A stretch of 40,920 nt of DNA from Microcaldota archaeon (GCA_027365175.1 DAHXNY010000008.1:1-40920), one strand, 5' to 3'. Shown: positions 1 through 32,281, numbered from the stretch's first letter. The notes: generated by a model from the letters alone, not told the origin. Numbers and translations: made by a program.

Positions 1-704
1 CATCAAGGTACAAAGATGAGACGTCACACCGGTTCAACGGTAAGAACTTCTGGACATGGGTCGTTGCGACAAAGGATTGGGCGTACTATACGATAGAACA
101 GAGAAGAAGTCACAAAGTTGCAAAGAACCTGGAGAGCACACATGGTGTTGACACTGTCGATGGATATGCAGGTTACAACAAACTACAATGCGAAAGGCAG
201 AGGTGTTGGGCGCATCTTCTGAGAAGGGCAAAGAAACCGATCTATCAGTTTGGCATCGACGAGAAGTTTGACGACTACAAAACGTTTGCCAAGAAACTGT
301 CTCTACTGTTTCATAATGCAAAAGTCGAAAAGAGAGAGGGAAAGTCGTCAAAGAAACTCCGCGGCAGATACGACAAGAAATTATGGAGATTGCTCCAATC
401 TGTGCCGACAGAGGGAAGGAACTTCACACGACTTACCAACTACATAATGAGATTCAATAACGAATGGTTTACCTTCCTTCAGTATGAAGATGTAGAACCT
501 ACAAATAACAGAGCTGAACGGTCTCTGCGGCCAATGGTCATAAAGAGAAGAATAAGCCAACAGAGCAGAGGAACAGACAACATGGACAGTTATGCGATGC
601 AGATGTCATTGCTTATGACATCAAAACTTCAAGGGCAGGAGTATACGGAGAATCTATCAAATATCCTGAAATCTGCCGTTCTCCCGACCCCGTACAAATC
701 TTAA
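1..704 (+). mobile_element. IS66-like insertion sequence, 3' part only
   Basis: The window begins inside an insertion sequence whose transposase gene runs off the left edge. I could not identify the right terminal inverted repeat in the AT-rich stretch after the transposase stop (705-760), so the true element boundary is unknown. It lies directly upstream of the peptide-maturation cassette, which makes it a candidate vehicle or a marker of a transferred segment. Confidence 0.7.
3..704 (+). CDS. IS66 family transposase, C-terminal part (5' end outside window)
   Basis: DDE-type transposase that would cut and join DNA ends. The frame is open from base 3 to the stop at 702-704, well upstream of the first internal ATG (390), so the gene is truncated only by the window edge. 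Reading that frame shows family hallmarks in order: DET near residue 5-7, a DGYAGYN block around residues 56-62 (second acidic residue), a CWAHLLRRAKK block around 72-82, and near the C-terminus TNNRAERSLRP, which carries the catalytic Glu. I see no frameshift or stop in the visible part, so the element may be active. IS66 elements are mainly bacterial, so presence here fits transfer. Confidence 0.85.
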   Translation, partial: SRYKDETSHRFNGKNFWTWVVATKDWAYYTIEQRRSHKVAKNLESTHGVDTVDGYAGYNKLQCERQRCWAHLLRRAKKPIYQFGIDEKFDDYKTFAKKLSLLFHNAKVEKREGKSSKKLRGRYDKKLWRLLQSVPTEGRNFTRLTNYIMRFNNEWFTFLQYEDVEPTNNRAERSLRPMVIKRRISQQSRGTDNMDSYAMQMSLLMTSKLQGQEYTENLSNILKSAVLPTPYKS

Positions 705-763: not shown

Positions 764-773
764 TTTATATATT
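764..773 (+). promoter_or_regulatory. TATA box of the peptide-maturation operon
   Basis: TTTATATATT lies about 40 bases before the precursor start, so transcription would begin near 793-798. A GGTGAG ribosome-binding sequence at 795-800 and a GGTGGAG at 806-812 precede the two possible start codons (GTG 807, ATG 813). The three downstream genes are tightly packed with no further obvious promoter, so they probably share this one. Confidence 0.6.
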
Positions 774-812
774 ACCTAAACCATCACTATAATCGGTGAG
801 TAAAGGGTGGAG

Positions 813-1061
813 ATGATAAGTAAAACTAAACAAACCGGGAAAGCACAGACTACACTGAATCCAAGTAGCATAGAATTGGCAGATAGTATCAGGGATAAAT
901 CATCTGATGTATCATTTGATAAACTTGGCCGAACGTTGTTTGGAAGTTATATACGCGTTTTCAGAGATCCTGAAAGAACCCTGGCAGATAATTCAGGGTG
1001 TGATGGAGCAAATACAGGATGCCAGAACAGTGGATGCGATGGTTCTAACAGTGGTTGTTAA
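813..1061 (+). CDS. Putative RiPP precursor peptide with Cys-rich repeat core
   Basis: An 82-residue peptide (84 if GTG 807 is used). The first ~58 residues form a charged, Cys-free leader. The last 23 residues are Gly/Asn/Ser-rich with four Cys at 63, 70, 75 and 82, the last being the C-terminal residue. Spacing is C-x6-C-x4-C-x6-C, and each Cys follows N-S/T-G. The core is two copies of a 12-residue unit. It sits directly before a radical SAM enzyme, whose start overlaps its stop codon, and an M16 protease: the arrangement of sactipeptide/ranthipeptide systems such as subtilosin, where the radical SAM enzyme links Cys sulfur to a backbone or side-chain carbon and a protease removes the leader. 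Precursor status is inferred from architecture; I recognise no named family. A small metal-binding protein is the main alternative. Confidence 0.75.
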   Translation: MISKTKQTGKAQTTLNPSSIELADSIRDKSSDVSFDKLGRTLFGSYIRVFRDPERTLADNSGCDGANTGCQNSGCDGSNSGC

Positions 1062-2080
1062 TACCATTCCAAGGTGTTACAATCGATATTCTAGCTACTG
1101 TAACGGATAAGTCTTCTTTGCATAGATTCAGCGGATCAAATAACTTCAACCTTATAATATTGCCAACAGAGCAATGCAATTTTAGATGCGCCTATTGCTA
1201 CGAAGACTTTACTAATGCAAAACGAATGGATAAAGAAACTGTAAGTGGCGTTAAGAACCTTATTACTAAGCGATCCGTTTTAGGATTGGACCATTTAAAT
1301 ATCTCATGGTTTGGTGGAGAACCTCTTACAGCATACGCAATAGTCACCGACATAATGCAGCATGCTAAAAGAACTTCAGAAAGCAATAATGTATCATTAT
1401 CATCGCACATGACTACAAACGGATACTTATTAACCGCAGATAAGTTAGATGCGTTAATTGAAAACGGTGTAAAATCGTATCAGATATCATTTGACGGATA
1501 CAAGGATATTCACGACAAATATAGGCTAAGAGCAGATGGGAAAGGTACTTTCGATATCTTATGGAAAAACATTGTAAATGCTCACAAATTAAAAGACGCT
1601 GATTTTGACATTACCATACGCATACATGTTAATAATCATAATATAAGCAGTATAAAAGAGCTTCTTAGGAAAGCCAGAGACGATTTAGAAGAAGATAATA
1701 GATTCAAGTTCTTCATAAGGCCCATATCCAGACTCGGAGGACATAATGATAACAACATACCAATACTAGCAGATAACGACCGGGTTTATGCGAGCAACAT
1801 AATATCCATGTTGCGCGAAGAAGCTAAGTCATTAGGTTTGGTCCACATATCAACTTCCGAATCGAATGTTTGTTATGCTGCAAAACTCGATACGTTGCTA
1901 ATAAGACAGGATGGCAGATTGGGAAAGTGTACAGTGGCATTATACGATGATCGCAATACTGTGGGCAGGCTATTAAAAGATGGTACGGTTGATATAGATA
2001 GGGATAAAGTTCTTTGGTGGTCCAGAGGTCTATTTACCGAAGACAACTTCCAATTAACATGTCCGTTAATTGCAAAATAA
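1055..2080 (+). CDS. Radical SAM peptide maturase with SPASM-like C-terminus
   Basis: Predicted to generate the 5'-deoxyadenosyl radical and crosslink the adjacent precursor. C41, C45 and C48 form the CX3CX2C motif (CNFRCAYC) for the [4Fe-4S] cluster; GGEP at 87-90 binds SAM. The C-terminal third has a SPASM/twitch pattern: C273, an IRQDGRLGKC stretch ending at C292, a VGRL..DGT segment, then C336. Normal SPASM domains continue with more Cys; this one stops five residues after C336. There is no in-frame ATG before the cluster motif, and an in-frame stop lies at 1046, so initiation must be non-AUG: TTG 1055 overlaps the last codons and stop of the precursor, suggesting translational coupling. 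Family assignment is solid; the substrate is inferred from position. Confidence 0.85.
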   Translation: MLIPFQGVTIDILATVTDKSSLHRFSGSNNFNLIILPTEQCNFRCAYCYEDFTNAKRMDKETVSGVKNLITKRSVLGLDHLNISWFGGEPLTAYAIVTDIMQHAKRTSESNNVSLSSHMTTNGYLLTADKLDALIENGVKSYQISFDGYKDIHDKYRLRADGKGTFDILWKNIVNAHKLKDADFDITIRIHVNNHNISSIKELLRKARDDLEEDNRFKFFIRPISRLGGHNDNNIPILADNDRVYASNIISMLREEAKSLGLVHISTSESNVCYAAKLDTLLIRQDGRLGKCTVALYDDRNTVGRLLKDGTVDIDRDKVLWWSRGLFTEDNFQLTCPLIAK

Positions 2081-2101
2081 TTTGTGAATGTACGATGCGT
2101 T

Positions 2102-3280
2102 ATGATAGATTTAGTTTTAGATAATGGCCTAAGAATAACTGCACTTAAAAAAAGCACTCTTAAATCATCAAGCATAACTGCACTTGTTGACTATGGTACA
2201 GCATACGAATCAGAAAATGAATCTGCACATTTACTAGAGCATGCACTTCTTAGCAATATAAGTGAAGGTCTGCTGAAAAATGGAAGCTATGCCCATGGCA
2301 AGACGTTTCCAACATATACTACTTATTACCTGCCTTTTTATTACAAATATGCTGACGAAACTGCAGACTTGATTACTAAGTTAATGTTGCACCCTTCATT
2401 TAACGAGGAAAATATAAACAATGATAAAAGATCCGTATTGCTAGAACTCTCAAGAGTGCATGACAATCCCTTCATAGCGTTTAACGACAAGATGATTGTC
2501 GTCCTGTTTGGAGATAAAATTAAAAAATCAATACCTGAAGAGATAAACATAACAGAATCAACAAATACGGACATGTTGGAAGATACTTACTACAAACATT
2601 ACACTCCTTCAAAAACGCATATCTTCGCATACGGTGCTATAAACGAAGAAAAAATTGTTGAAAGACTAAAAAATAACTTCAGGCATGCCGGAGATGGTAC
2701 GACAGATAAAAACCGTAATCAACCAACCATAAAAAAATCTCCTGAACAAGAGGTTAAATATAATTTTGATAGTGCATTAGTCGGCACTGGATTTACTCTG
2801 CCAGGAACAGAACATTTCGGTAAAAATATGTATAGTTATTATTCATTTAGCATGGCTTTTCAAGGTCTCATCACAAGGCTTAATGATGCTCTAAAAAACA
2901 AAGGGCTTATTTACGAGGGGCAATCACAAGAACAGGTATTTAACAGTGCCGGCTATTGCTGGTATTTTGCTCCTGTGGATAAAAAGAACACAGAGGAAGC
3001 ACAAAAAACAATATCTACAGAAATTGATAGCATATCTAAAAGCGGATTCAGTAACGACGAATTCGGGTTTTATAAAAAGAGAATGCTCCTAAATTATACG
3101 GACAATAAGGAAAACAAGGAACGTTTCTCGATAGACTTCCTTAGATTTAAACTTGCATATAATCTTGAAGATAACGAAATTGAAACAAATCCGATTGAAG
3201 ACCTGCGGAAAGACAACCTAGATGAGGCTGTTTCTAATTATCTATCAAGGAGGAACGACCTTGTAATAAATAACAAATAA
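2102..3280 (+). CDS. M16 family zinc peptidase (probable leader peptidase)
   Basis: About 392 residues, one M16 unit (N- and C-terminal halves). The inverted zinc motif HLLEH is intact at residues 43-47 counted from ATG 2102, with a downstream Glu near 115 (LLELSR) as third ligand. The C-terminal half has the family pattern around SRL/LITRLNDAL..KGLIYEG. M16 proteases such as AlbF (subtilosin) and PqqF (PQQ) process radical-SAM-modified peptides, so leader removal is the likely role. It starts 21 bases after the radical SAM stop; GTG 2084 is an alternative start only three bases after it, but the conserved domain begins exactly at MIDLVLDNGL. No signal peptide or membrane segment, so it acts in the cytoplasm. 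Confidence 0.85.
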   Translation: MIDLVLDNGLRITALKKSTLKSSSITALVDYGTAYESENESAHLLEHALLSNISEGLLKNGSYAHGKTFPTYTTYYLPFYYKYADETADLITKLMLHPSFNEENINNDKRSVLLELSRVHDNPFIAFNDKMIVVLFGDKIKKSIPEEINITESTNTDMLEDTYYKHYTPSKTHIFAYGAINEEKIVERLKNNFRHAGDGTTDKNRNQPTIKKSPEQEVKYNFDSALVGTGFTLPGTEHFGKNMYSYYSFSMAFQGLITRLNDALKNKGLIYEGQSQEQVFNSAGYCWYFAPVDKKNTEEAQKTISTEIDSISKSGFSNDEFGFYKKRMLLNYTDNKENKERFSIDFLRFKLAYNLEDNEIETNPIEDLRKDNLDEAVSNYLSRRNDLVINNK

Positions 3281-3300: not shown

Positions 3301-4527
3301 TCATTTTATGTTTAGGCTCATGAGTATCAGGACAGATATTATGTAGAATGGTATTGCAAGCATGAATGTAGAGATATATGAGACATTAGCATAGAGATAC
3401 CCTGAGAATATCTGTGCAGGGAAGGCAGCTATGAGCGGCATTACGCTGAACAGAGCCATCAGCTTTCCGCGTCTCTCCTTCTCAGAGAGATTTCCCTGCA
3501 GCGTGGACATGGAAGGCTGCGCGATTGCGCCTCCGACGCCACCCGTAACGCTCCATGCAAGAAGGTCATTCATGCCGTTTGAAGATACGAATATGAACAT
3601 GGATAACGGGGAGAAGAGAGCCGAGAGGATAGCTGCCTTTTTCAGTCCTGCACGCTTTATTATCCTTACGGAGGGGATAAGCACAATCACGGTGGCAAGC
3701 CCTGTAATTCCGCTGAGCAGCCCGTATGTCACCGGAGACAGGCTCAGCTGCTTTACAAGATATATGGATACGAAGATGGTGGTGAAGCTTGCAGCTATGC
3801 TAGAAGTCACGGCATACCAGAGCAGCTTCTTTGCATCGCTGTTTGCCTTTTTGATGGTATGCACATAATCGCTTATCATCTCCCTGAAGTTCTTGAGGAA
3901 CGGCTCCTTCAGCCTGGGCCTCGGCTTATACGTCTCACCCAGCTTTATCGCACGGTAGAGCATCGCCGTCAAGCCAAGCATGCCGCTTGCAAAGAATGCG
4001 ATCTTGATCCCGTTTATATCTCCGTAGCGCACCATGAGCAATCCCCCTATAACAGGTGCAAATACTGCAGGAAGGGTGTTAAGTATTGCAAAAGAGGCAA
4101 AGCCGGAAGGTCGCATATCCTGCCTCATCGATTCGGTTAGCACAGAGTTGAACGCGGGCGTGTAGATGCTGCAAAGCGATCCTATTATAACCGGAATAAG
4201 TATGATCTGCCAGGTGTTTATGAAGAGATACAGGAAGGCGCTTCCTGCGGCAATTGTGCTGAATATCACTATGATCTTTCTCCTCCCGAATACGTCTGCA
4301 AGATAGCCACCCAGGAGCAGGGCCGCTGCAGTTACCACTGAGCTTATTGCAGCCATCACTGCGATGTACAGCAGAGGCATTCCCAGTGCCTTGAAGAATA
4401 TCGACTGGAATGGAGAATACATGAAGCTGCCGATGCCCCAGATTGCAGAAGTAAGCGTTATTATCCATGCATCTTTAGGCAGATAGAATCTGAATACTCC
4501 TGGCTTGCCGCCTCTGCGTGTCGCCAT
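3301..4527 (-). CDS. Major facilitator superfamily transporter
   Basis: A 408-residue integral membrane protein with about twelve hydrophobic segments. Motif A of the MFS is visible between segments 2 and 3 (GGYLADVFGRRK, roughly residues 73-84), and a charged cytoplasmic loop around 205-235 separates the halves. This size and pattern match drug/metabolite efflux MFS proteins, but the substrate cannot be read from sequence. Its 3' end faces the 3' end of the M16 gene 20 bases away. Base composition is clearly more GC-rich than the peptide cassette, so it is probably resident DNA rather than part of the cassette; a role in exporting the peptide is only a possibility. Confidence 0.88.
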   Translation of the reverse strand: MATRRGGKPGVFRFYLPKDAWIITLTSAIWGIGSFMYSPFQSIFFKALGMPLLYIAVMAAISSVVTAAALLLGGYLADVFGRRKIIVIFSTIAAGSAFLYLFINTWQIILIPVIIGSLCSIYTPAFNSVLTESMRQDMRPSGFASFAILNTLPAVFAPVIGGLLMVRYGDINGIKIAFFASGMLGLTAMLYRAIKLGETYKPRPRLKEPFLKNFREMISDYVHTIKKANSDAKKLLWYAVTSSIAASFTTIFVSIYLVKQLSLSPVTYGLLSGITGLATVIVLIPSVRIIKRAGLKKAAILSALFSPLSMFIFVSSNGMNDLLAWSVTGGVGGAIAQPSMSTLQGNLSEKERRGKLMALFSVMPLIAAFPAQIFSGYLYANVSYISTFMLAIPFYIISVLILMSLNIK

Positions 4528-8526: not shown

Positions 8527-9075
8527 TTACTCTATCTTCCAGCTTCCATCAGGCTGCCTGCACGCCACGCCTTTTATCGTTTGAGCCTGCCCTCCTACAA
8601 AGCCTGTAGTGACATAGCTCCTGCATACCTCTCCTGCCATCGACCCCTGCTGCGGCATATACTGCTGCGTAGGAGTTACCTGATAGCGGTTGCCGTACTG
8701 GTTTGTCCAATAGCTTGTCCTGCCCACTTGATTATTCGTTATGGCATTATAGGCATTTATCTGGTCCTGCCTGTCCATGCTTCTCCCTACTGCGCCTCCT
8801 ATAAACGCTCCGGCGAGTGTGCCTATTATCGTAGCTGCAGCTCCTCCCTCGCCACCACCGATCTGGTTTCCAACAACTCCTCCGAGAATTCCCCCGACAA
8901 CCTGCCCCTCCTGCTGGTATGTTGCACAGCCGGAAACAGCTACTGCCATTGCAGCTCCTACTGCCACTCCCCTTGCCATCTTCTTAAAGGCGCTTAATGA
9001 GGTTACATTATCAGCATCTCTTTTAGGTGCAATATCTCTCTTATTCGGTTCTTCAGAAATTCTTACGGTTTGCAT
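8527..9075 (-). CDS. Glycine-zipper lipoprotein, 17-kDa surface antigen type
   Basis: A 182-residue protein. A hydrophilic ~30-residue N-terminus precedes a hydrophobic segment ending in a lipobox (AVAVSGC, Cys50). Residues ~58-100 form a glycine zipper with repeated GxxxG spacing (GGILGGVVGNQIGGG...GAFIGGAVG), and the C-terminus has the family's CR..vttG..GGQAQTIKGVACRQPDGSW pattern. Known relatives are bacterial envelope lipoproteins of the 17-kDa surface antigen family, so this is unexpected in an archaeon and suggests transfer. The ATG at 9075 is preferred over 9105 because it follows a GTGTGAT site, matches the paralogue's start, and is placed right after the TATA box (9103-9114). The very long stretch before the hydrophobic segment is odd. 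Confidence 0.8.
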   Translation of the reverse strand: MQTVRISEEPNKRDIAPKRDADNVTSLSAFKKMARGVAVGAAMAVAVSGCATYQQEGQVVGGILGGVVGNQIGGGEGGAAATIIGTLAGAFIGGAVGRSMDRQDQINAYNAITNNQVGRTSYWTNQYGNRYQVTPTQQYMPQQGSMAGEVCRSYVTTGFVGGQAQTIKGVACRQPDGSWKIE

Positions 9076-9102
9076 TTTATCACACATGATATATTCATTT
9101 TT

Positions 9103-9136
9103 CATTTATAAAAGTGCCTATCAGTTTACGATGAGT
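9103..9136 (-). promoter_or_regulatory. TATA box and upstream element of lipoprotein 1
   Basis: On the minus strand CTTTTATAAATG (9103-9114) lies about 30 bases before ATG 9075. Upstream, the sequence TCGTAAACTGATAGGCA aligns without gaps to TCGTAACCTGATAAGCA before the TATA box of the second lipoprotein gene. Confidence 0.55.
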
Positions 9137-9251: not shown

Positions 9252-9713
9252 TTATCTGCGCTGCTCCCCCTGCCACATGCGTCCATCCCCGTCATCATCA
9301 TTCCGCTGCCAGTAGTACGGCTGCTGCTCCCTGAAATAGTCGTCACCGTTTCCCCAATAATATGGGATTACCGGACTGGGAGTGTAATCATCTCCTCCAT
9401 AACCATAGTATGGCACATCATCTCTGTAGCTGTAGTATGGCAATGCATTCCCATAACCATAGTATGGCACATCCTCCCTGTAGCTGTAGTATGGAATTCC
9501 TTCTCCGTATACAATCTGGCTCCCCACATATCCTCCAAGCATGCCGTCTGTCATCTGGCCTGGAAAAGCTGCGCAGCCTGAAACTGCAAAAGTAACTGCC
9601 AATGCTGCCCCAACCGCGAGTCCCCTTGCCGATTCCTTAAACGTTTCCATTTTGCTTCCGATCCATCCCTTGTGCACCCGAGTATTTGGTTCAGCGTTGT
9701 TTAGTCTTTGCAT
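9252..9713 (-). CDS. Tyr-rich repeat lipoprotein, paralogue of lipoprotein 1
   Basis: A 153-residue protein. Its N-terminal 55 residues resemble the neighbour's: hydrophilic start, ARGLAVGAALAV hydrophobic core, lipobox AVSGC with Cys47, then a short LGGYVGSQ remnant of the glycine zipper. The zipper and 17-kDa C-terminus are replaced by two 18-residue Tyr/Asp repeats (PYYSYRxDVPYYGYG) and an acidic, Tyr/Gln/Arg-rich tail. Probably membrane-anchored and exposed outside the cell. ATG 9713 follows TTGTGGTAGA and matches the paralogue's start. The two genes are separated by 176 bases and share a promoter element. Confidence 0.65.
   Translation of the reverse strand: MQRLNNAEPNTRVHKGWIGSKMETFKESARGLAVGAALAVTFAVSGCAAFPGQMTDGMLGGYVGSQIVYGEGIPYYSYREDVPYYGYGNALPYYSYRDDVPYYGYGGDDYTPSPVIPYYWGNGDDYFREQQPYYWQRNDDDGDGRMWQGEQRR
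9398..9505. repeat. Two 54-bp tandem repeats within lipoprotein 2
   Basis: Units at 9398-9451 and 9452-9505 encode the two 18-residue Tyr-rich repeats; most of the first 45 bases are identical, which indicates recent duplication and potential for length variation. Confidence 0.8.
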
Positions 9714-9741
9714 TCTACCACAATATATTGTGCCCATCCTT

Positions 9742-13318: not shown

Positions 13319-14221
13319 ATGGATAATGACAATAAGGAGATAGGCCTGATAGGGCTGGGGAGCATGGGGACTAACATCTCAGAAGTGCTGCTGAGGAGCG
13401 GGTATAATCTGACTGTATATAACAGGAGCGTCGATAAATACACACATTTTAATGACAATGACAAGGTAAGGTGCACAAGCAGCATAGAAGAATTCGCAGA
13501 AAAACTTCAACAAAGTGGAAGTGATGCTGCCATATGGACTATGCTGCCTGGCGGAGAACCTACCAACAACACACTATCTAAGTTATCCTCGCTTCTAAAA
13601 AAAGGTAGTATAATCATAGACGGATCAAACTCGGATTATACGGATTCTGTATCCAACTACAACAGACTGCGTGATAAAGGCATATGGTACCTTGACGTCG
13701 GAGTTGCAGGAGGTCCTGATGACGTTCTGAAAGGCGTTGCGATAATGGCAGGAGGAGACCGTGAAGCCTTCAACAAAGTAGAAGGGATATTGAAAACAGT
13801 GGCGGGCGGGGAGAAGAGATACGGATATGTCGGGAAGAGCGGAAGCGGACACAGGCTGAAGGCAGCACACAACTCCATATTCTATTCGATATTCCCAATA
13901 TTTGCAGAGACAGCAGCAGCGATCATGGGGCAGGCTGAAGGCAGGGAGGCTACAGAGGAAGCTCTCAGGCTTCTGAGCATAGCTCCTCCGATAACAAATG
14001 GGATACCAGAAGCCATACTGGGCGCTTTCAGGAAGCATGAACTCTCTAAAGAAGCGCCAAAAGTAACGGTATCAAGGATGGTAAGCTCCTATGTGGACGA
14101 TGCTGAGAGAAGTGGCACGCCTCTAGACATAACTAAGGAGGTGCTGAAGAGCTATCCTGAAATGCGCGACAGCACAAAGATAGTCTATTCAGGAGCCAAG
14201 AAGATACTGACAGGGCATTAG
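13319..14221 (+). CDS. 6-phosphogluconate-dehydrogenase-like NAD(P) enzyme
   Basis: A 300-residue member of the 6PGDH/beta-hydroxyacid dehydrogenase superfamily. The Rossmann motif GLIGLGSMG is at the N-terminus, followed by VYNRS, DGSNSDY and a GSGHRLKAAHN catalytic block. The conserved Lys181 and Asn185 are present, but Phe188 stands where true 6PGDH has the general-acid Glu, and the SGG substrate loop is AGG. So it may oxidise a different sugar acid or beta-hydroxyacid. The length matches short bacterial/archaeal 6PGDHs. ATG 13319 follows GGTAG; ATG 13301 is in frame upstream. It starts soon after the YjbQ-like gene (probable operon) and its end overlaps the 3' end of ispG on the other strand by four bases. 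Confidence 0.78.
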   Translation: MDNDNKEIGLIGLGSMGTNISEVLLRSGYNLTVYNRSVDKYTHFNDNDKVRCTSSIEEFAEKLQQSGSDAAIWTMLPGGEPTNNTLSKLSSLLKKGSIIIDGSNSDYTDSVSNYNRLRDKGIWYLDVGVAGGPDDVLKGVAIMAGGDREAFNKVEGILKTVAGGEKRYGYVGKSGSGHRLKAAHNSIFYSIFPIFAETAAAIMGQAEGREATEEALRLLSIAPPITNGIPEAILGAFRKHELSKEAPKVTVSRMVSSYVDDAERSGTPLDITKEVLKSYPEMRDSTKIVYSGAKKILTGH

Positions 14222-15498
14222 CCGTTTGCAGCCTGCTGGCTGAGCTTTGCCTTCTTGGAGTAATGCGACTCCACATATCTCTCAAGGTGCTTCTTGAATT
14301 CATCGGTTGCAACATCTGCCTTTACTGCAGCCACCTGCTTCCCATCCTCGTATATGAGGCATGAGGGGTTCTCTCCGCTGCCCGGAAGTGATATGCCTAT
14401 CTGCGCCATTCTCGACTCTCCAGGACCGTTGACAACGCAGCCCATAACCGCAACCTTCATCTCCTCCACACCGTCATATCCCGAGTTCTTCCATTCGGGC
14501 ATGCGCTCCTGCAGATATCCGGTAAGATCCTCTGCCATCTCCTGGAATGTCGTAGAGGTCGTCCTTCCGCACCCAGGGCAGCTCGTTACCACAGGCGAGA
14601 AGTGCCTTATATCAAGTGACTGAAGGATATGCCTGCACACCTTCACCTCCTCCGCCCTGCTCGAGCCTGGAGTCGGCGTAAGCGACACTCTTATCGTATC
14701 TCCTATTCCCTGTGTCAGGAGCAATGACAGCGCTGCTGACGAAGCTGCCACTCCCTTGCCGCCTATACCTGCTTCCGTGAGACCCAGGTGGAGCGGCTGC
14801 TCTATCCTAGAGGCAAGCATCTCATACGCCTTTACCATCTTTGAGACCTCAGAGATCTTAGTGCTGACTATTATCTTGTTGGGCTCTACACCGTACTCCA
14901 CGGCTTTATTCACGGACTGCACGGCGCTCTCCACAACAGCCGCAATCATTATGTCATCTGCGCTCTTCTGCACAGCTGCCTTGGTATTGTCATCCATCAT
15001 CTTCGTCAGAACGGTCTGGTCAAGTGATCCCCAGTTCACGCCTATCCTTACGGGCTTGTCATGGTCCTTTGCAACATCTAGTATTGACTTGAAATTATCA
15101 TCATGCTTATCGCCGAAACCGACGTTCCCGGGGTTTATCCTGTACTTGTCGAGCGCGTCTGCACACGAAGGAACTTCCCTGAGCAGCTGATGCCCGTTGT
15201 AATGGAAATCCCCTATCAACGGTATGTTATACCCCAGATCATCAAGCGCCTTCCTTATATCCGCTACTGCGCGTGCCATCCTTAGATTCTGTACTGTGAA
15301 CCTGACGAGCTCCGAGCCAGCCTTATAAAGCTCTATTATCTGCGCTACTGTGGCTGTAACATCTCCTGTGTCGGTATTGGTCATGCTCTGTATTGCAACA
15401 GGATGCTCAGACCCTATGTACATGTCCCTTACTCTTACCTGAAGGCTCCTTCTCCTCGGTTTCCAATCTGTATCCTTTCCCATGCTTATTGTTGCCAT
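14218..15498 (-). CDS. ispG: 4-hydroxy-3-methylbut-2-enyl diphosphate synthase
   Basis: Penultimate enzyme of the MEP (non-mevalonate) isoprenoid pathway; it reductively opens MEcPP to HMBPP using a [4Fe-4S] cluster. The 426-residue protein has the N-terminal TIM-barrel start (HPVAIQSMTNTDTGD, residues 32-46) and the cluster Cys in CPGCGRTT (Cys307, Cys310) and VMGCVVNGPGES (Cys353, Glu361), so it should be active. It begins four bases after the ispH stop, with GTGAG as ribosome-binding site, so the two are co-translated. It is the last gene of the dxr-ispH-ispG cluster. Archaea normally use mevalonate, so bacterial origin is likely. Confidence 0.95.
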   Translation of the reverse strand: MATISMGKDTDWKPRRRSLQVRVRDMYIGSEHPVAIQSMTNTDTGDVTATVAQIIELYKAGSELVRFTVQNLRMARAVADIRKALDDLGYNIPLIGDFHYNGHQLLREVPSCADALDKYRINPGNVGFGDKHDDNFKSILDVAKDHDKPVRIGVNWGSLDQTVLTKMMDDNTKAAVQKSADDIMIAAVVESAVQSVNKAVEYGVEPNKIIVSTKISEVSKMVKAYEMLASRIEQPLHLGLTEAGIGGKGVAASSAALSLLLTQGIGDTIRVSLTPTPGSSRAEEVKVCRHILQSLDIRHFSPVVTSCPGCGRTTSTTFQEMAEDLTGYLQERMPEWKNSGYDGVEEMKVAVMGCVVNGPGESRMAQIGISLPGSGENPSCLIYEDGKQVAAVKADVATDEFKKHLERYVESHYSKKAKLSQQAANG

Positions 15499-15502
15499 TC
15501 GC

Positions 15503-16450
15503 TCACATGCTCCTTGAAAGAGGTCTGTTGAGTTCGTAAGGCATGGTGAATTTCATATCCTCCTTTATCACTTGCATGCTCTCCACCGTGGCTCCGCGGT
15601 CCTTGAAGTACTGCGCAAGCTCCTGGACAAGGTACTCGGGAGCGCTGGCTCCTGCAGTAATCCCCACTGTCTTCTTGCCTTCGACCCACTCCTCCTTAAG
15701 CTCACTTACGCTGTCTATAAGATACGCATCGACTCCCAAAGCCTTTGCAGTATCGGCTAATCTGTTTGAGTTTGAAGAGTTCTTGCTGCCAAGAACCAAT
15801 ACAACATCACACCTGCCTGCAGCCTGCTTTATCGCCCCTTGCCTGTTTGTAGTAGCATAGCATATGTCAGAGGACGGCGGGGCCCTGAGCTGCGGAAATC
15901 TCTTCTTAAGAGCATCTATAACTCCCATGCACTCGTCTACAGAGAGCGTTGTCTGTGTCAGGTATGCAAGCTTTGAAGGATCCCTTACCTTTATCTCGCC
16001 GACCTCTTCTGGCGTCTCTACTATCTGCGTTATGTCAGGCCGTATCCCCATAACCCCTACCGCTTCAGGGTGGTTCCTGTGCCCTATATACAGTATCTCA
16101 AGGCCCTCCTTTGCAAACCTGCCTACCTCTATGTGTATCTTGGAAACAAGAGGGCATGTCGCATCTATCGTAGAGAGCTTCCTGGCTCTTGCCTCCTCCC
16201 TTATCTTCGGCGCTATCCCATGTGCTGAGAAGACGCAGACACTCCCTTCGGGTATCTCCGATATCTCCTCCACGAATATCGCCCCTTTCTTACGCAGTGC
16301 ATCGCACACCGTCTTGTTATGCACTATCTCGTGTTTCACATATATTGGCGCACCGAAGTTCTCAATCGCTTCCTCTACAGTATTGACTGCACGCTCCACT
16401 CCTGCGCAGAATCCTCTTGGCTCTATCAGAATTATCTTTTCAACGCTCAT
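15503..16450 (-). CDS. ispH: 4-hydroxy-3-methylbut-2-enyl diphosphate reductase
   Basis: Last step of the MEP pathway, giving IPP and DMAPP from HMBPP. The 315-residue length is typical. The three cluster Cys are present (GFCAGVERA Cys15; DATCPLVSK Cys99; DICYATTNRQ Cys197), with catalytic Glu129 in HPEAVGVMG, Thr in YLTQTTLS, SSNSNRL and ITAGASAPE. All expected active-site motifs are intact. An own promoter lies upstream (16511-16518) and GGTAG precedes ATG 16450, so it may be transcribed with ispG separately from dxr, 161 bases upstream. Confidence 0.95.
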   Translation of the reverse strand: MSVEKIILIEPRGFCAGVERAVNTVEEAIENFGAPIYVKHEIVHNKTVCDALRKKGAIFVEEISEIPEGSVCVFSAHGIAPKIREEARARKLSTIDATCPLVSKIHIEVGRFAKEGLEILYIGHRNHPEAVGVMGIRPDITQIVETPEEVGEIKVRDPSKLAYLTQTTLSVDECMGVIDALKKRFPQLRAPPSSDICYATTNRQGAIKQAAGRCDVVLVLGSKNSSNSNRLADTAKALGVDAYLIDSVSELKEEWVEGKKTVGITAGASAPEYLVQELAQYFKDRGATVESMQVIKEDMKFTMPYELNRPLSRSM

Positions 16451-16518
16451 TTCACTACCTTGTTATCATCCTTTACTAATTGCTTCAGGTCTGATTCTCT
16501 CCCCTAACAAATTTATAA
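16451..16518 (-). promoter_or_regulatory. Promoter and ribosome-binding site of ispH-ispG
   Basis: On the minus strand TTATAAAT (16511-16518) would start transcription near 16488, giving a ~38-base leader ending in AGGTAGTGAA (16451-16460) directly before the ATG. Confidence 0.5.
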
Positions 16519-16611
16519 CTATATGCGGCTACCGAATTATTTATAATAGAATACCTGTAAATGGCACATGACGAACTAGTTTTAGACAGTACTGCCATGC
16601 CTCTCCCATAA

Positions 16612-17880
16612 TCATCTACATATCCTCTTTCGTTCACCGGCAGTATCTTCGGAGAGTATCTCCTTGTAATTATGCATGACATGTTTTCTTGCCCACGAGT
16701 CTGCCTCTATTATCTGTCCCAGTGTGGGCTCCCTATTGACAGGATGGGCATCAAGGGCGCTCTTTATCAGCTTTGGCATATCCGTAAATCCTATCCTTCC
16801 GTTGCAGAAGAGCTCCACAGCTGTCTCATCTGCACCGTTAAGCACTGCAGGCGCGCTGCCGCCGAGCCTTCCTGCCCTGTAAGCAAGGGCTATGCTTGGG
16901 AAGCGTTCGGTGTCAGGCTCCTCAAAATCAAACCTTCCTATCTCTGAGAGCTCGAGCCTCTTAAGCCCCGTGTCTATCCTGTATGGGTAAGTGAGGGAGT
17001 AAGCTATGGGGTATCTCATGTCATGTGGGCCCTGCTGCACCTTCTGGCTTCCATCTATTAGCTGCACGCCCGAATGGACTATGCTCTGTGGGTGCACGAC
17101 TATCCTCACCTTATCGACCTGCACTCCGAATATCGAAGCTATCTCTATAACCTCCATTCCCTTGTTCATAAGCGTTGCAGAGCGTATAGTTATCAGCCTG
17201 CCCATGTCCCACGTAGGATGCCTCAGGGCCTGCTGAAGGGTGGCCTTATCCAGCTCCTCCCTGTTCCACTCGCGGAAAGGCCCTCCTGAGCATGTGAGTA
17301 TGAAGTGGTCTATATTGTTCTTTGCACCTCTGTGCAGATGCCATACCGCACTGTGTCTGTCCTCTGAAGCATATATCTCAGGTTCCAAAGTCTGCCATAT
17401 CGCATTCGGTTCGCTGTCTATGGGCAGTATCTCTACACCATGCCTCTTTGCGGCCTCTGTCACCAGCCTGCCTGCAGTCAGGAAGGCCTCCTTGTTAGCT
17501 ATCGGCACCGTATTTCCTGCCTCAATGGCCGCAAGCGTTGGCGCAAGCCCTGCAAATCCTGCAGTGGCTATCACCACATATCCATCGCTTATGCTCCTGC
17601 AAAGATCTACTGCCTCCTGCTCTCCTGACAGTATCTCCGTCTTAACTCCCTTTCCAGAAAGCCGTATTCTGAGATCCTCTGCCTTATCCTCGTCAACTAC
17701 TACTGCCTTTTCCGGACCGAACTCCAGAATCTGCTTCTCAAGAATATCTATATTGCTGTTGCATGCCAATCCGCATACCTTGAAATTGCGCTTGCCAGAC
17801 AGCCTTTTAACGACATCAAGCGTCTGCGTTCCTATCGAACCTGTAGATCCATGTATTACCAAGGGTATATCATCGTCCAT
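16612..17880 (-). CDS. dxr: 1-deoxy-D-xylulose 5-phosphate reductoisomerase, divergent
   Basis: Second step of the MEP pathway: NADPH-dependent rearrangement and reduction of DXP to MEP. At 422 residues it is slightly longer than usual. Visible motifs: GSTGSIG (11-17, NADPH), IANKEAFLTAG (128-137), DSE at 155-157 (metal Asp/Glu), SGGPFRE (198-204), HPTW (221-224), SATLMNKGMEVIE (234-246, with Ser, Asn, Lys and metal-binding Glu), and HPQSIVHS. Two usually invariant spots differ: the DSEH motif is DSEP (Pro158), and MGxKISVDSAT is MGRLITIRSAT. The C-terminal domain is complete. It heads the cluster with ispH and ispG, 161 bases before ispH. Metal ligands are conserved, so I expect activity, but this is not certain. 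Confidence 0.93.
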   Translation of the reverse strand: MDDDIPLVIHGSTGSIGTQTLDVVKRLSGKRNFKVCGLACNSNIDILEKQILEFGPEKAVVVDEDKAEDLRIRLSGKGVKTEILSGEQEAVDLCRSISDGYVVIATAGFAGLAPTLAAIEAGNTVPIANKEAFLTAGRLVTEAAKRHGVEILPIDSEPNAIWQTLEPEIYASEDRHSAVWHLHRGAKNNIDHFILTCSGGPFREWNREELDKATLQQALRHPTWDMGRLITIRSATLMNKGMEVIEIASIFGVQVDKVRIVVHPQSIVHSGVQLIDGSQKVQQGPHDMRYPIAYSLTYPYRIDTGLKRLELSEIGRFDFEEPDTERFPSIALAYRAGRLGGSAPAVLNGADETAVELFCNGRIGFTDMPKLIKSALDAHPVNREPTLGQIIEADSWARKHVMHNYKEILSEDTAGERKRICR

Positions 17881-21039: not shown

Positions 21040-21615
21040 TCATACTGATGTAGAGGCGGTTGTATATATGGTAGTTGTGGATACGGATACTGTCTGTGAA
21101 GTTGTCCAGAGCATAACGCGCAGTTCGGCAGGCACACCGTTACCAAGAATTACCGGAGTGTTCTGTACGACTACTGTTGTGGCATTATACTCCAGGGGGT
21201 TTGGCCCTATGCTAAGGTTATACAGCTGAGGGGAATAGATCACTATATAATAATTATAGCTGACTCCGAGCAGCTGCTTTGATGCCTGATAATTAATCAG
21301 GGCGAGCGCTGCAAGCTTTGCTATCTTGGCTTCTGACAGTGCGCTGCCATTGTTGCTCGCAAGACCTATGCTGGCGTTTGTCCATGTTGACAGATCCGAG
21401 GGATCAACTACATAATACCAGTCAGAAGGCGTCCCTGTTGTCAATAGTCTGTTGGTAAGCTGCTGCATATTTGACTGCATGTTGCCATATGTATTTGAGT
21501 ATGTGATAGAAAACTGCTGCGATACGTTAAACCATACATAAGTCAGAATAACCATGGTTATCGCGAATATCACTATCGCAAAGATCATATCCATAGACCA
21601 GAATTGTAGCTTCAT
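21040..21615 (-). CDS. Pilin-like envelope protein
   Basis: A 191-residue protein with a short charged N-terminus (MKLQFWSMD) followed at once by a hydrophobic helix (MIFAIVIFAITMVILTYVWF), the layout of archaeal type IV pilin-like or class III signal proteins. The rest is a Ser/Thr/Tyr-rich extracellular domain. Its ATG overlaps the TGA of the giant LamG gene upstream as ATGA (21612-21615), so it is translationally coupled to it. It may be a pseudopilin or a partner of the LamG protein on the cell surface. No transmembrane segment at the C-terminus. Confidence 0.65.
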   Translation of the reverse strand: MKLQFWSMDMIFAIVIFAITMVILTYVWFNVSQQFSITYSNTYGNMQSNMQQLTNRLLTTGTPSDWYYVVDPSDLSTWTNASIGLASNNGSALSEAKIAKLAALALINYQASKQLLGVSYNYYIVIYSPQLYNLSIGPNPLEYNATTVVVQNTPVILGNGVPAELRVMLWTTSQTVSVSTTTIYTTASTSV

Positions 21616-24600
21616 GTTCCCCAACTCAAAGGTACCTGCTCCGTGTATGTTATCGGCAACTGGTTGTTATAAAGCTGATATACTTGGCCAGGCGTAAGAG
21701 AGGCGTTATAGTATTCTATATTTGCAATGCTGCCTGCAAGATTAGGGCCGACGACAATAGGGCTTGAGGATATTCCTGATGAAGAGGTGCCTTTGGCAAG
21801 AAGCACTCCATCGGCATAATAACTTACGTTATTTCTATCAAATGTGCCTACCACATATGTCCATTTTCCAATAGGGAATGTGGTAACACTATTGGAGGTC
21901 GCACCTCCTCCGCCGACTACGAATCCTTGTTTTGAAGAGGTTCTGAAAAGCCCATAATATGAACTTCCAGGAGTGCCTAGATAAACTCCGGATCCCGAGA
22001 CCGGCTGATCCAGATAAACCCAGGAGGCTATGCTGAAGCGCTGATAATTGCGATTATTCGCTACCATTGCATTTCCTGAACCTACTGAGGATATCCCATA
22101 TCCGCCCAATCCAGGTATGGCAGACGGATTTGACAGATATTCATATGTTGTAACGTTCTCCACTCCGTTATTCCCGTTGCCGCTGTAATCATTTGCATTG
22201 CCATTCAGCGGCCACCATGCAACAAGCCCGTCATTAGGCCTGGGCATCCCATAGAATCCGGAGTTGTATAACGTGCTGATTTCGCTTTTAGGCAACGCTT
22301 CGCTATATAGCTGCACATCTGCAATGACTCCATTAAACCCGTATGAATCGCCAGATGCATAAGAATTACCTATCTCAAATGGGACCGCCTGCGCAAGATC
22401 AAGGTGTGGGCTCAGCATAACAGAATTAACTGTCGTATTATCCATGTATACTGATGCCTGCCCTGTGCTTCCGTTATACTCTGCAGTTACCATCTCCCAA
22501 GTATTCAGAGGGAAGTTAGGTGTTACACTGGTCCACTTTACAATTTGTCCTGCAACGGTTAACGGATATTCTGAAGCGGCAAAATCCGTACAACCATAAA
22601 ACTGGAATCCGGTGCTCCCAGAGATGTCTCCAGCTATACCTTCCCAACCTGTGCATGAGTTCATGTATATCCATGCGGTTACTGTGAACGATCCGCTTGT
22701 CAATATATCTGCATAATTGTTTATACTATTGACAGCCATGTAACTGTCATATGCCTGGTTGAAACCAGTTGCAAGGAAGCTACCTATATTGTTATTTCCA
22801 TATTGTTGTACCTTCGGACCAGTGAAACCAAAGCTTCCTACACCAAAGCCGTTGTTCCCGTTTCCTGAATAATCATTAGTATTCCCATTCAGCGGCCACC
22901 AGCCTTCGTCAGTTATGCCCTGCCCTGTTTCCTGGGAACCTCCAATACCTTTATTATATAACTGCAGCACCTCTTGCTGTGTCAGACTTCCTTTATATAA
23001 TTGGACGTTTGCAATCTGTCCGGTGAATGAACTTGCACCAGGACAGCCATATGAAGAAGAACTACGATTGGATCCTATTACCATATCCAATGTATTTGCA
23101 GAAGCAGACCATACTCCGCTCGACGTAGGTCCATATATCTGTGCACCGTCTACATACATGGATATTTCACTAGATGCTCCTTGTGTAGTCAATACTATGT
23201 TGTACCATCTGTTATTCGATAAATTGTAAGTTCCAGTTGCACTCTCTCCGCCAGAACCATCTCCGAATATTATCTGCTGGTTACCTACGCATGCAGCATA
23301 TCCGCCAGGTTTGAATACTACGGACTCAAGTTTCTGTGTTTGTGATGGCGATACCCAAAAGGACAGGCTGATAGGAGTATTGTAAAGCTCCGTACTGGCA
23401 GAATTTGGAACATCCACATAGCTACTATATCCTGAGAACTGGCCGACGTAATTGACGCTGTTCCAATATCCGTTCTCCAGAGTGCCAGATGCCGAACTGT
23501 TAGCAAGATTGAAGAGTACGTTGCCCTGGTTGGTATTCAGCGGCCACCAGCCTGTAAGATTCTTTACAGTATACACATTTCCTTCGAAAGGATTGACCTT
23601 GACCGTTGCATATCCTGTATTGTTCGTCTGCATCAGGAAAGCTGTTGCAATACCATTATTATTTGTAAAATTGGATGCTGACTGTCCATTTCCCTCAAAG
23701 CTGCCAAGAGTTGATGAAAAGCCTACAAGGTCCCCTTTTACAGGAGACAGAGTGGCATTTGTCACATTTGCATATATCTGAGCAACTGTGGGATAAGCTA
23801 TCAGATATGCTCTTCCGTTATTGTTGTTTCCGCTGTAGTCATTCGCATTTCCGTTCAGCGGCCACCATGCTGACAGATTTTCTGATTGCACAGGCTGCCC
23901 GTTTATCCCACCGTTCTGAAGCTGGGCTATCTGGTTAGAGTTAAGTGCGGTGCTGTATATCTGCAAGTCAGATAACGAGCCGTTAAAAGGGCTGCTGCTT
24001 TGGCAGGCTCCCTGGCCGTTATCGTATGTATAACCGGTTGAACCCATAACGAGATTATATATATAGCTTGCAGGATCCATAGGGACCACGCCTTTTGCAA
24101 TAGTCTTTCTCCCATTCACATAAAGGGTGAGAAGGTTTGTTGCATCGGAGTAGGTCCATGCTACAAAATACCACGTATTGCTCTTTATGGGAAGGAAAGC
24201 CGCTGAAGAACCCTTATTTATATTCTGGAAACCGCCGTATATGTTATTCCCAGACACGTATATCATAGGGCCAAAGCAGTAACTTCCCTGCTGAGACGTC
24301 CCATAATTGACCACTGCCATATCTCCTAAACCAGAAGGTAGCTGTTTTACATATACCCATGAAGACATTGTTATTGAATTGTAAACAAATGGTTGCAGGA
24401 GGCTGGGGGAGTTTGCAACATAGACGTAACTGCTCTGTCCGTTCATCTGTGCAACATGCGTTACCTTCGTATATACATTCAGTCCGGAATTCTGTGCAGA
24501 TGTGGTGTTGCAGACATAATCTATGCATATGTCCCCATGAGAATTCTGAATATAGATAAGGCCGCTTGCAACAGGCATGTTATACGTATGGATGGCGTTT

Positions 24601-24962
24601 GGAGACGCATACTTCTGAGAGGATATTACTCTTCCTACAGGGGCATAAGCATATGCATATGAGAGCTTCCCAGTAGCGTTATTATACACTATCACCGTCC
24701 CTGAAGAAGTGACAGATAGGTTATAGCCGACAAGCCCTGTGCCTGAAGGCAGGCTGACGTTCTGCGCATAACCGTTTCCAGAGGTTGACGCTATGCTAAT
24801 ATCCTGTGCTATGCTCTGGGCGATTACCTGCAGCTGCGCATAATCCTGCTGCTGTGATGACTGCACGCGCTGTGTTGCTACTAAGCCGAATATCAGCACG
24901 AATATTATCAGCACGAAGGAGAATACTATCACGTAGTCTATTGAGAGTTGGGCCTTTATCAT
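21612..24962 (-). CDS. Giant LamG-domain surface protein with class III signal
   Basis: An 1116-residue protein. The start MIKAQLSIDYVIVFSFVLIIF has the QLSIDY class III signal used by archaeal pilins and related surface proteins. Then come four LamG/concanavalin-like domains, each ending in a LQIYS..L...QI..LY/LQNGGI-type strand and followed by a GWWPLNGNxNDYSGNxNNG linker: about residues 175-350, 500-665, 715-900 and 955-1110. Between the first and second lies an Ig-like (Big1-type) domain at ~405-480. LamG domains usually bind glycans or proteins, so host or biofilm adhesion is likely. I chose ATG 24962 because the signal begins there. Its 3' end is coupled to a pilin-like gene. Confidence 0.82.
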   Translation of the reverse strand: MIKAQLSIDYVIVFSFVLIIFVLIFGLVATQRVQSSQQQDYAQLQVIAQSIAQDISIASTSGNGYAQNVSLPSGTGLVGYNLSVTSSGTVIVYNNATGKLSYAYAYAPVGRVISSQKYASPNAIHTYNMPVASGLIYIQNSHGDICIDYVCNTTSAQNSGLNVYTKVTHVAQMNGQSSYVYVANSPSLLQPFVYNSITMSSWVYVKQLPSGLGDMAVVNYGTSQQGSYCFGPMIYVSGNNIYGGFQNINKGSSAAFLPIKSNTWYFVAWTYSDATNLLTLYVNGRKTIAKGVVPMDPASYIYNLVMGSTGYTYDNGQGACQSSSPFNGSLSDLQIYSTALNSNQIAQLQNGGINGQPVQSENLSAWWPLNGNANDYSGNNNNGRAYLIAYPTVAQIYANVTNATLSPVKGDLVGFSSTLGSFEGNGQSASNFTNNNGIATAFLMQTNNTGYATVKVNPFEGNVYTVKNLTGWWPLNTNQGNVLFNLANSSASGTLENGYWNSVNYVGQFSGYSSYVDVPNSASTELYNTPISLSFWVSPSQTQKLESVVFKPGGYAACVGNQQIIFGDGSGGESATGTYNLSNNRWYNIVLTTQGASSEISMYVDGAQIYGPTSSGVWSASANTLDMVIGSNRSSSSYGCPGASSFTGQIANVQLYKGSLTQQEVLQLYNKGIGGSQETGQGITDEGWWPLNGNTNDYSGNGNNGFGVGSFGFTGPKVQQYGNNNIGSFLATGFNQAYDSYMAVNSINNYADILTSGSFTVTAWIYMNSCTGWEGIAGDISGSTGFQFYGCTDFAASEYPLTVAGQIVKWTSVTPNFPLNTWEMVTAEYNGSTGQASVYMDNTTVNSVMLSPHLDLAQAVPFEIGNSYASGDSYGFNGVIADVQLYSEALPKSEISTLYNSGFYGMPRPNDGLVAWWPLNGNANDYSGNGNNGVENVTTYEYLSNPSAIPGLGGYGISSVGSGNAMVANNRNYQRFSIASWVYLDQPVSGSGVYLGTPGSSYYGLFRTSSKQGFVVGGGGATSNSVTTFPIGKWTYVVGTFDRNNVSYYADGVLLAKGTSSSGISSSPIVVGPNLAGSIANIEYYNASLTPGQVYQLYNNQLPITYTEQVPLSWGT

Positions 24963-25035
24963 TGCAACGCAATTTATACTAATCAACGCAGCTTAAAAAA
25001 GATTTAGTTACATAACAGGCAAGTTTTACAGATAC

Positions 25036-25047
25036 ATATTTAAATTG
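25036..25047 (+). promoter_or_regulatory. TATA box of the sORF-LamG operon
   Basis: ATATTTAAATTG about 25 bases before ATG 25065. The large LamG gene starts 107 bases further down, so without the small ORF its leader would be unusually long for this genome. Confidence 0.5.
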
Positions 25048-25064
25048 TCAAACAGAAGTTAATC

Positions 25065-25175
25065 ATGTGGCCAGAAATGAAAACATACGTGCACAATGCT
25101 GTATCTAAAAACTATTATGATTACTGGTGCACGGCACAGGATGATTTGTCGATGGCAAAGCGTGTTTGCAAATGA
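25065..25175 (+). CDS. 36-residue ORF overlapping the next surface-protein gene
   Basis: An uninterrupted 36-codon ORF whose start lies where transcription should begin and whose TGA overlaps the ATG of the following gene as ATGA (25172-25175). The peptide has an aromatic centre (NYYDYW), two Cys and a basic C-terminus (MAKRVCK); no membrane segment or known family. The promoter spacing and the precise overlap argue it is translated, as a regulatory leader peptide or a small partner. A shorter start (ATG 25077) is possible. A gap of leader RNA without coding role is the alternative. Confidence 0.5.
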   Translation: MWPEMKTYVHNAVSKNYYDYWCTAQDDLSMAKRVCK

Positions 25176-27481: not shown

Positions 27482-27491
27482 GTAATTGTTT

Positions 27492-32266: not shown

Positions 32267-32281
32267 ATATCTTGCTACGGT

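Follow-up and report, generated by a model that had tools for sequence, protein, structure and literature searches.

A probable ranthipeptide-like biosynthetic cassette with tandem Asn-Cys motifs in a Microcaldota archaeon

Gene content of the locus

The DNA analyzed here, referred to below as the window, is a stretch of 40,920 nucleotides from a Microcaldota archaeon (GCA_027365175.1, DAHXNY010000008.1:1-40920). Positions 764 to 3280 hold a set of three genes, all on the plus strand, behind a TATA box, which confirms the layout described in an earlier note on this DNA. The first gene (813-1061, with an ATG start at 813; an alternative GTG start at 807 adds 2 amino acids) encodes an 82-residue candidate RiPP precursor with the leader motif DVSFDKLGR at residues 32 to 40. 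As the note had said, this peptide has a Cys-free leader: its Cys residues are at positions 63, 70, 75, and 82, the last of these being the final residue. The core, residues 60 to 82 (990-1058), reads NSGC-DGA-NTGC-Q-NSGC-DGS-NSGC, so that the core motif, previously reported as unrecognized, is in fact made of four N-[ST]-G-C repeats (N60-S-G-C63, N67-T-G-C70, N72-S-G-C75, and N79-S-G-C82).

The second gene (1055-2080) starts with a TTG at 1055 that overlaps the stop codon of the precursor gene and encodes a radical SAM protein of 341 amino acids, the candidate maturase, with the CX3CX2C motif CNFRCAYC at residues 41 to 48 (C41, C45, and C48) and the GGEP motif, both as originally read. The third gene (2084-3280) begins 3 nucleotides past the second and encodes an M16 metalloprotease of 398 amino acids if started at the GTG at 2084 or 392 amino acids if started at the ATG at 2102.

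To the left of the set is an IS66-type transposase gene (3-704, plus strand) truncated by the contig end, which sits at the position of a membrane-protein gene in the congeners. To the right is a resident transporter gene of the MFS type (3301-4527, minus strand), which lies outside the set and marks its border.

The TATA box, TTTATATA (764-771, plus strand), is the sole recognizable promoter of the set. The number of its occurrences in the window (4 observed versus 2.7 expected) is not significant and was dropped as an argument. The box is instead supported by the conservation of the block AAATGTTTATATATTAC in the congener G003.

The archaeal origin of the contig is indicated by its leucine--tRNA ligase, which scores 851 bits on the archaeal model (cut-off, 648.5), and an archaeal 23S rRNA is present in a genome of the same order. 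The genome that contains the window is 795 kb in size and 89% complete, and its small size and lineage suggest a DPANN-like host. The genomes of the phylum that were compared with it are fragmented assemblies.

An AT-rich insertion between resident genes

The GC content of positions 813 to 3280 is 36%, versus 46% elsewhere in the window. The same bias is seen at third codon positions, with GC3 values of 0.27 for the precursor gene, 0.34 for the radical SAM gene, and 0.31 for the M16 gene, versus 0.58 for the MFS gene. In four genomes of the genus (G001, G002, G004, and G005), the MFS gene is separated by only ~55 to 60 bp from the membrane-protein gene, with nothing between them. The left flank of the set, at positions 713 to 737, appears to be a remnant of this resident intergenic sequence, and the cassette starts to the right of it: the flank matches the cassette-free intergenic stretches of G001 (25 nucleotides at 88% identity) and G002 (18 nucleotides at 94%), both of which are short and individually weak matches.

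G003 carries at this locus the promoter block and an M16 gene with 60% identity, without the precursor and radical SAM genes. The 50 nucleotides preceding its M16 gene resemble the end of the radical SAM gene and can be read as QLTC-LLLVK-stop, against QLTC-PLIAK-stop in the window; such a resemblance was reached in 2 of 500 in-register shuffles and in 18 of 200 generic ones. Judging by the MFS protein, G001 and G002 (93% and 92% identical to the window) are closer to the window than G003 (84%), and the unit has therefore been gained or lost more than once. This sporadic presence of an AT-rich insertion among congeners suggests a moving cassette. Such behavior would fit a role in competition or signaling, which we offer as a proposal. 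Each of the six searched genomes of the genus has the MFS gene as a resident, so it cannot be counted as an exporter of the product.

The scar in G003, together with the four congeners that have no cassette, indicates that the locus erodes, and it could be argued that the cassette is decaying in this strain as well and its product is no longer made. We regard this as very improbable: the three frames in the window are uninterrupted, all catalytic residues are in place, and the core repeats fit the rule of the family (see below) in four cases out of four.

The precursor and its family

A cluster of Cys residues at the end of an open reading frame is not by itself sufficiently rare: among 261 open reading frames, 14 carry four or more Cys within their final 22 amino acids, and 4 of those are Cys-free before. 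Four terminal Cys being weak evidence, the identification of the precursor rests on homology. When a precursor profile was built with the window sequence left out, the window open reading frame ranked first of 911, with an E value of 0.0035 (the next one had 1.4). Thus, homology lends good support to the RiPP reading of the cassette.

At an E value threshold of 1e-70, the radical SAM profile finds 8 of the 301 genomes of the phylum; a ninth, G273 (1.4e-31), falls outside the group. Among the seven other genomes with the radical SAM gene, five encode a related leader and core Cys residues in small genes located directly 5' of it, two each in G231 and G243 and one each in G069, G226, and G228. 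One of the two products in G231 reads NGGC-NNNGC-...-DSHC-TNKGC. In alignment, the leaders of the phylum share the motif [VI]-x-[FVIL]-D-x-x-G-[RK]. The full precursor profile has matches in 6 of 296 genomes (E < 1e-3), all of them within the 8 genomes with the radical SAM gene; since the rows of the profile came from those very loci, it is the absence of matches elsewhere that is informative. A search of the 296 genomes for precursor homologues without the radical SAM gene gave none that is convincing: a weak match in G171, which has no radical SAM homologue at E ≤ 1e-30, covers the Cys region only (0.002). Of the two radical SAM loci without a precursor match, in G089 and G262, the former is at a contig end.

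At the G262 locus (L090, 5453-6565, minus strand), the radical SAM protein itself begins with an in-frame fusion to a leader-like stretch, LSFDKFGRLVF, which provides independent support for recognition between leader and enzyme. There is no Cys core near this fusion, and a second radical SAM gene follows it.

Outside the archaea, plasmids from Streptomyces, Sinorhizobium, and Bradyrhizobium carry the pair of precursor and radical SAM genes, as do chromosomes of Xanthomonadaceae (7 of 199 genomes); in the latter, the enzyme gene is often followed by another precursor gene. Because a tblastn search of plasmids with the Streptomyces precursor returned only its own record, the other precursors were located by position. 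In the databases searched, these bacterial relatives carry no family name, and no description of the precursor family was found in the open-licence literature. Homology and the co-occurrence of the pair thus uphold the view that in this archaeon a RiPP precursor is paired with a radical SAM maturase dedicated to it. The Cys repeat ascribed to the precursor is not general in the family, as several homologues (those in G226, G228, and Bradyrhizobium) have two Cys and no repeat.

Spacing of Asn and Cys in the core

In the 19 precursors of the family, 32 of the 69 core Cys residues have an Asn three positions before them, versus 11.6 expected, a value reached in none of 2,000 permutations in which the non-Cys residues were shuffled within each core (the sequences are related and thus not independent). 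At the other upstream offsets, save -4, Asn is at or below expectation. The window core taken alone has Asn at -3 of all 4 Cys (0 of 20,000 permutations), and the archaeal precursors without the window have it at 9 of 21 Cys versus 2.7 expected (1 of 5,000). The first core Cys is part of an NxxC motif in 14 of the 19 precursors; the homologues in G226 and G228 have no such motif. In Xanthomonadaceae, all 30 core Cys residues have an Asn at -3 or -4, and this mixture of NxxC with NxxxC means that ring size cannot be uniform. This analysis is not circular, as the precursors were chosen by position, Cys content, and leader, without regard to Asn. The CX3D motif was not found in the window core.

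The radical SAM enzyme

The radical SAM domain is recognized by Pfam (Radical_SAM, E = 6.8e-18), and its CX3CX2C motif (C41, C45, and C48) is found in all 19 full-length sequences of the family. The tail had been called SPASM-like, and this holds in part: instead of a full SPASM domain, 3 of the 7 Cys residues (C273, C292, and C336) are present in a twitch-like arrangement, which is invariant in 20 of 20 sequences. The segment C273-X13-G-X4-C292 corresponds to the SPASM motif in its first half, whereas the later CX2CX5CX3C half is absent, so that one auxiliary cluster, bound by three protein ligands, is to be expected.

Among NCBIfam models, the best match of the window enzyme is TIGR04463 (rSAM_vs_C_rich, a radical SAM/SPASM RiPP maturase), with 146.3 bits against a cut-off of 525; the window enzyme and the bacterial short forms score 131 to 146 bits on this model. 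Further matches are to several peptide maturases, all below the respective cut-offs, including the PapB/freyrasin model (NF047865; 111.9 bits, cut-off 340) and the SCIFF maturase model (TIGR03974; 72.6 bits, cut-off 425). The enzyme starts level with the SAM domain and lacks ~60 N-terminal positions of the TIGR04463 model in addition to the second half of SPASM. In contrast to the long bacterial forms, it has no recognizable RRE-like N-terminal region. A PqqD-type domain (PF05402), the partner expected in a PQQ-type pathway, which the earlier note had named for comparison, was not found at E ≤ 1 in the genome (89% complete). Given the lack of a recognizable RRE in the enzyme and of a PqqD-type domain in the genome, the leader probably docks directly on the enzyme.

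The predicted structure of the enzyme (pLDDT 69.7, pTM 0.73, with low confidence in the region of the twitch and terminal Cys residues) has the thioether maturase CteB (5WHY; E = 3.7e-11) as its nearest fold, and CteB is also the best sequence match in the PDB. In a phylogenetic tree, the archaeal enzymes separate, with weak support, from most bacterial ones. An alignment search of viral contigs gave no relatives of the enzyme. A PADLOC match to viperin (2.6e-16) reflects similarity at the superfamily level, as the enzyme scores 54 bits on the NCBIfam viperin model, whose cut-off is 180.

The presence of viperin and the epimerase EpeE among the fold matches shows that related short folds can perform other chemistry, and the scores to the models of several maturase families lie close together. 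The enzyme might thus catalyze epimerization or oxidation of the backbone or of side chains, with the Cys residues binding a metal or forming disulfides. We consider this unlikely, as the spacing between Asn and Cys singles out the side chain at -3, the top sequence matches with known chemistry are thioether maturases (PapB with 112 bits and the SCIFF maturase with 73), and CteB is the best PDB match by both sequence and fold.

Predicted chemistry and relation to known systems

Taken together, the data make it fairly probable that the cassette is a horizontally mobile gene set for a ranthipeptide-like RiPP that bears at most four thioethers between Asn and Cys (-8 Da), the M16 protease probably cutting off the leader. 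The type and number of the bonds, the docking of the leader, and the role of the M16 protease are what we infer from the comparisons described above. The main ground for predicting Asn-Cys thioethers is that the NxxC motif of the core is that of NxxcA, in which the Cβ of Asn20 is joined to Cys23 in a thioether (PMC8326336; PMC11002830).

In the proposed mechanism, the leader, probably a β-hairpin (V-S-F-D-x-x-G-R) followed by a helix, would dock straight on the short, RRE-less enzyme. The CX3CX2C cluster would cleave SAM, and a hydrogen would be taken from the Cβ of each core Asn. The thiolate of the core Cys, possibly held at the open site of the three-Cys auxiliary cluster, would then close the bond; in CteB, the open site of the Aux I cluster is bound by the substrate Cys (PMC6231123). 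Each N-[ST]-G-C unit would give one i,i+3 Asn-Cys thioether ring, which makes at most four rings and a loss of 8 Da in total. Finally, the M16 protease would probably remove the leader.

Subtilosin-type sactipeptide clusters had been named for comparison earlier. Cross-linking of the Cys residues indeed appears likely, but the nearest chemistry is the Cβ thioether of NxxC ranthipeptides. The same genes could serve a sactipeptide, with a bond from Cys to the α-carbon of a different residue, of the kind seen in subtilosin or SKF: maturases of both thioether types share the plan of radical SAM plus SPASM or twitch, and the sactisynthase SkfB, which is also of the twitch type with one auxiliary cluster (PMC6231123), turns up as a fold match (6efn; E = 2.2e-7). 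However, CteB is a better fold match than SkfB. In most known sactipeptides, the donor Cys residues are N terminal to the acceptors in a hairpin (PMC8326336); this order is not seen in the window core, where a candidate acceptor Asn invariably stands three residues before each Cys, as in the Cβ-linked NxxcA. For these reasons, a sactipeptide seems improbable.

The predicted ranthipeptide-like product, for its part, differs from the characterized systems in several respects. It resembles NxxcA/NxxcB of Streptococcus orisratti in combining a radical SAM enzyme with an N-x-x-C precursor, a likeness drawn from the precursor motif; NxxcA has one ring and a streptococcal host, whereas the window core has four motifs. 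Ranthipeptides, whose products have thioethers from sulfur to Cβ or Cγ, combine a radical SAM maturase having a SPASM or twitch auxiliary cluster with a precursor in which Cys and a defined acceptor residue lie at a fixed spacing. The window offers twitch-type Cys residues and an Asn at -3 of each core Cys, but an RRE in or beside the maturase, usual albeit not universal among ranthipeptides, is not recognizable here. SkfB, which shares the twitch, has an RRE and makes α-carbon links (PMC6231123). CteB and PapB form Cys-based non-α thioethers as well, with Thr or Asp as acceptors where the window offers Asn, and CteB has both an RRE and a full SPASM domain.

The claim that such systems are scarcely described in archaea was too strong, as a 2025 survey lists, by automated annotation, clusters for ranthipeptides and sactipeptides in a range of archaea, DPANN among them, without products in that group (PMC12144867). 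What appears to be new, judging from the sequences, is the NxxC-type ranthipeptide logic with four tandem motifs and a twitch-type enzyme devoid of an RRE. Whether this amounts to a separate RiPP family of DPANN-like archaea and bacteria, defined by a radical SAM enzyme with a single auxiliary cluster and no RRE, a β-hairpin leader, and up to four tandem Asn-Cys Cβ rings, is nearly an even question, and we advance it tentatively. Such a family would include the first multi-ring NxxC product and, as far as we could find, the first archaeal thioether peptide made by a radical SAM enzyme with a defined precursor family. The compact enzyme appears not to need the leader-binding domain that is usual in such systems, and the predicted four losses of 2 Da offer a specific and cheap test of whether an archaeal lineage with small genomes performs thioether RiPP chemistry; some of the bacterial relatives belong to culturable genera.

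The M16 protease

The product of the third gene matches Peptidase_M16_C (8.7e-15) and Peptidase_M16 (2e-8) in Pfam. Its HLLEH motif at residues 49 to 53 is intact, as the note had it, with the zinc motif H49-E52-H53 complemented by the Glu ligand E121, and these residues are also kept in G003. A dN/dS ratio of ~0.22 between the window genome (G000) and G003, at a dS near saturation, indicates that the protein was kept functional during at least part of the divergence. Physically, the M16 gene belongs to the moving unit.

M16 enzymes are proven RiPP proteases, and M16B members mature class III lanthipeptides (PMC8960859). Removal of the leader by the cassette protease is therefore plausible and, by analogy, has slightly better than even chances; PttP1/2 and Bcn-gP1/2, the M16B enzymes of that system, are heterodimers encoded outside the cluster (PMC8960859), whereas the window has one M16 gene within the cassette. 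The case for the M16 as leader peptidase is weaker than originally presented. Although the gene lies inside the inserted unit, only 2 of 296 genomes have an M16 of this type, none is near the radical SAM gene at the seven other loci of the phylum or at the short-form bacterial loci, and G003 retains the TATA box and the M16 gene alone, having lost the precursor and the radical SAM gene. The three-gene co-occurrence looked for in relatives thus extends to the precursor and the radical SAM gene but not to the protease. A search of plasmids with the cassette M16 gave no match.

A competing explanation, somewhat short of even odds, is that the protease has no part in maturation but is a passenger or serves general proteolysis or self-protection, the leader being removed otherwise or never. 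Against it are the location within the inserted unit, on the same strand, 3 nucleotides after the radical SAM gene and with the same low GC3; the divergence from the second, resident M16 of the window genome (C11), to which it is only 22% identical; and the precedent of other RiPPs matured by M16 enzymes. As this alternative concerns one part of the cassette, it is compatible with our preferred reading of the precursor and the radical SAM enzyme as a ranthipeptide-like pair.

At two other loci of the phylum, the place of the M16 gene after the radical SAM gene is taken by a gene for a protein with PPDK_N and PEP-utilizer domains (L061, 9442-11484, in G069; L086, 2613-4607, in G243), possibly a second tailoring enzyme. 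On two Deinococcus plasmids (L073 and L076), a long-form relative of the radical SAM enzyme is found beside an LLM-class oxidoreductase. Lantibiotic dehydratase genes accompany it, and L073 has in addition an annotated M16 protein of the pitrilysin family. These plasmids were not counted in support of the M16, given the long form of the enzyme and the different context.

Other genes in the window

Several other regions of the window deserve mention. Adjacent genes at positions 14218 to 17880 on the minus strand encode three enzymes of the bacterial MEP pathway to isoprenoids, IspG, IspH, and Dxr, each scoring above the cut-off of its TIGR model; the usual isoprenoid supply in archaea is through mevalonate routes. 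Positions 21612 to 30740 encode three very large secreted pilin-like proteins (771 to 1,124 amino acids) with N-terminal hydrophobic segments and repeats that resemble LamG domains. Another twitch-type radical SAM gene, followed by genes for a NodU-like carbamoyltransferase and a glycosyltransferase, is found at positions 31205 to 33994. Finally, two small bacterial-looking proteins with a lipoprotein-like, glycine-rich start (MAVSGCA...) are encoded on the minus strand at positions 8527 to 9105 and 9252 to 9737.
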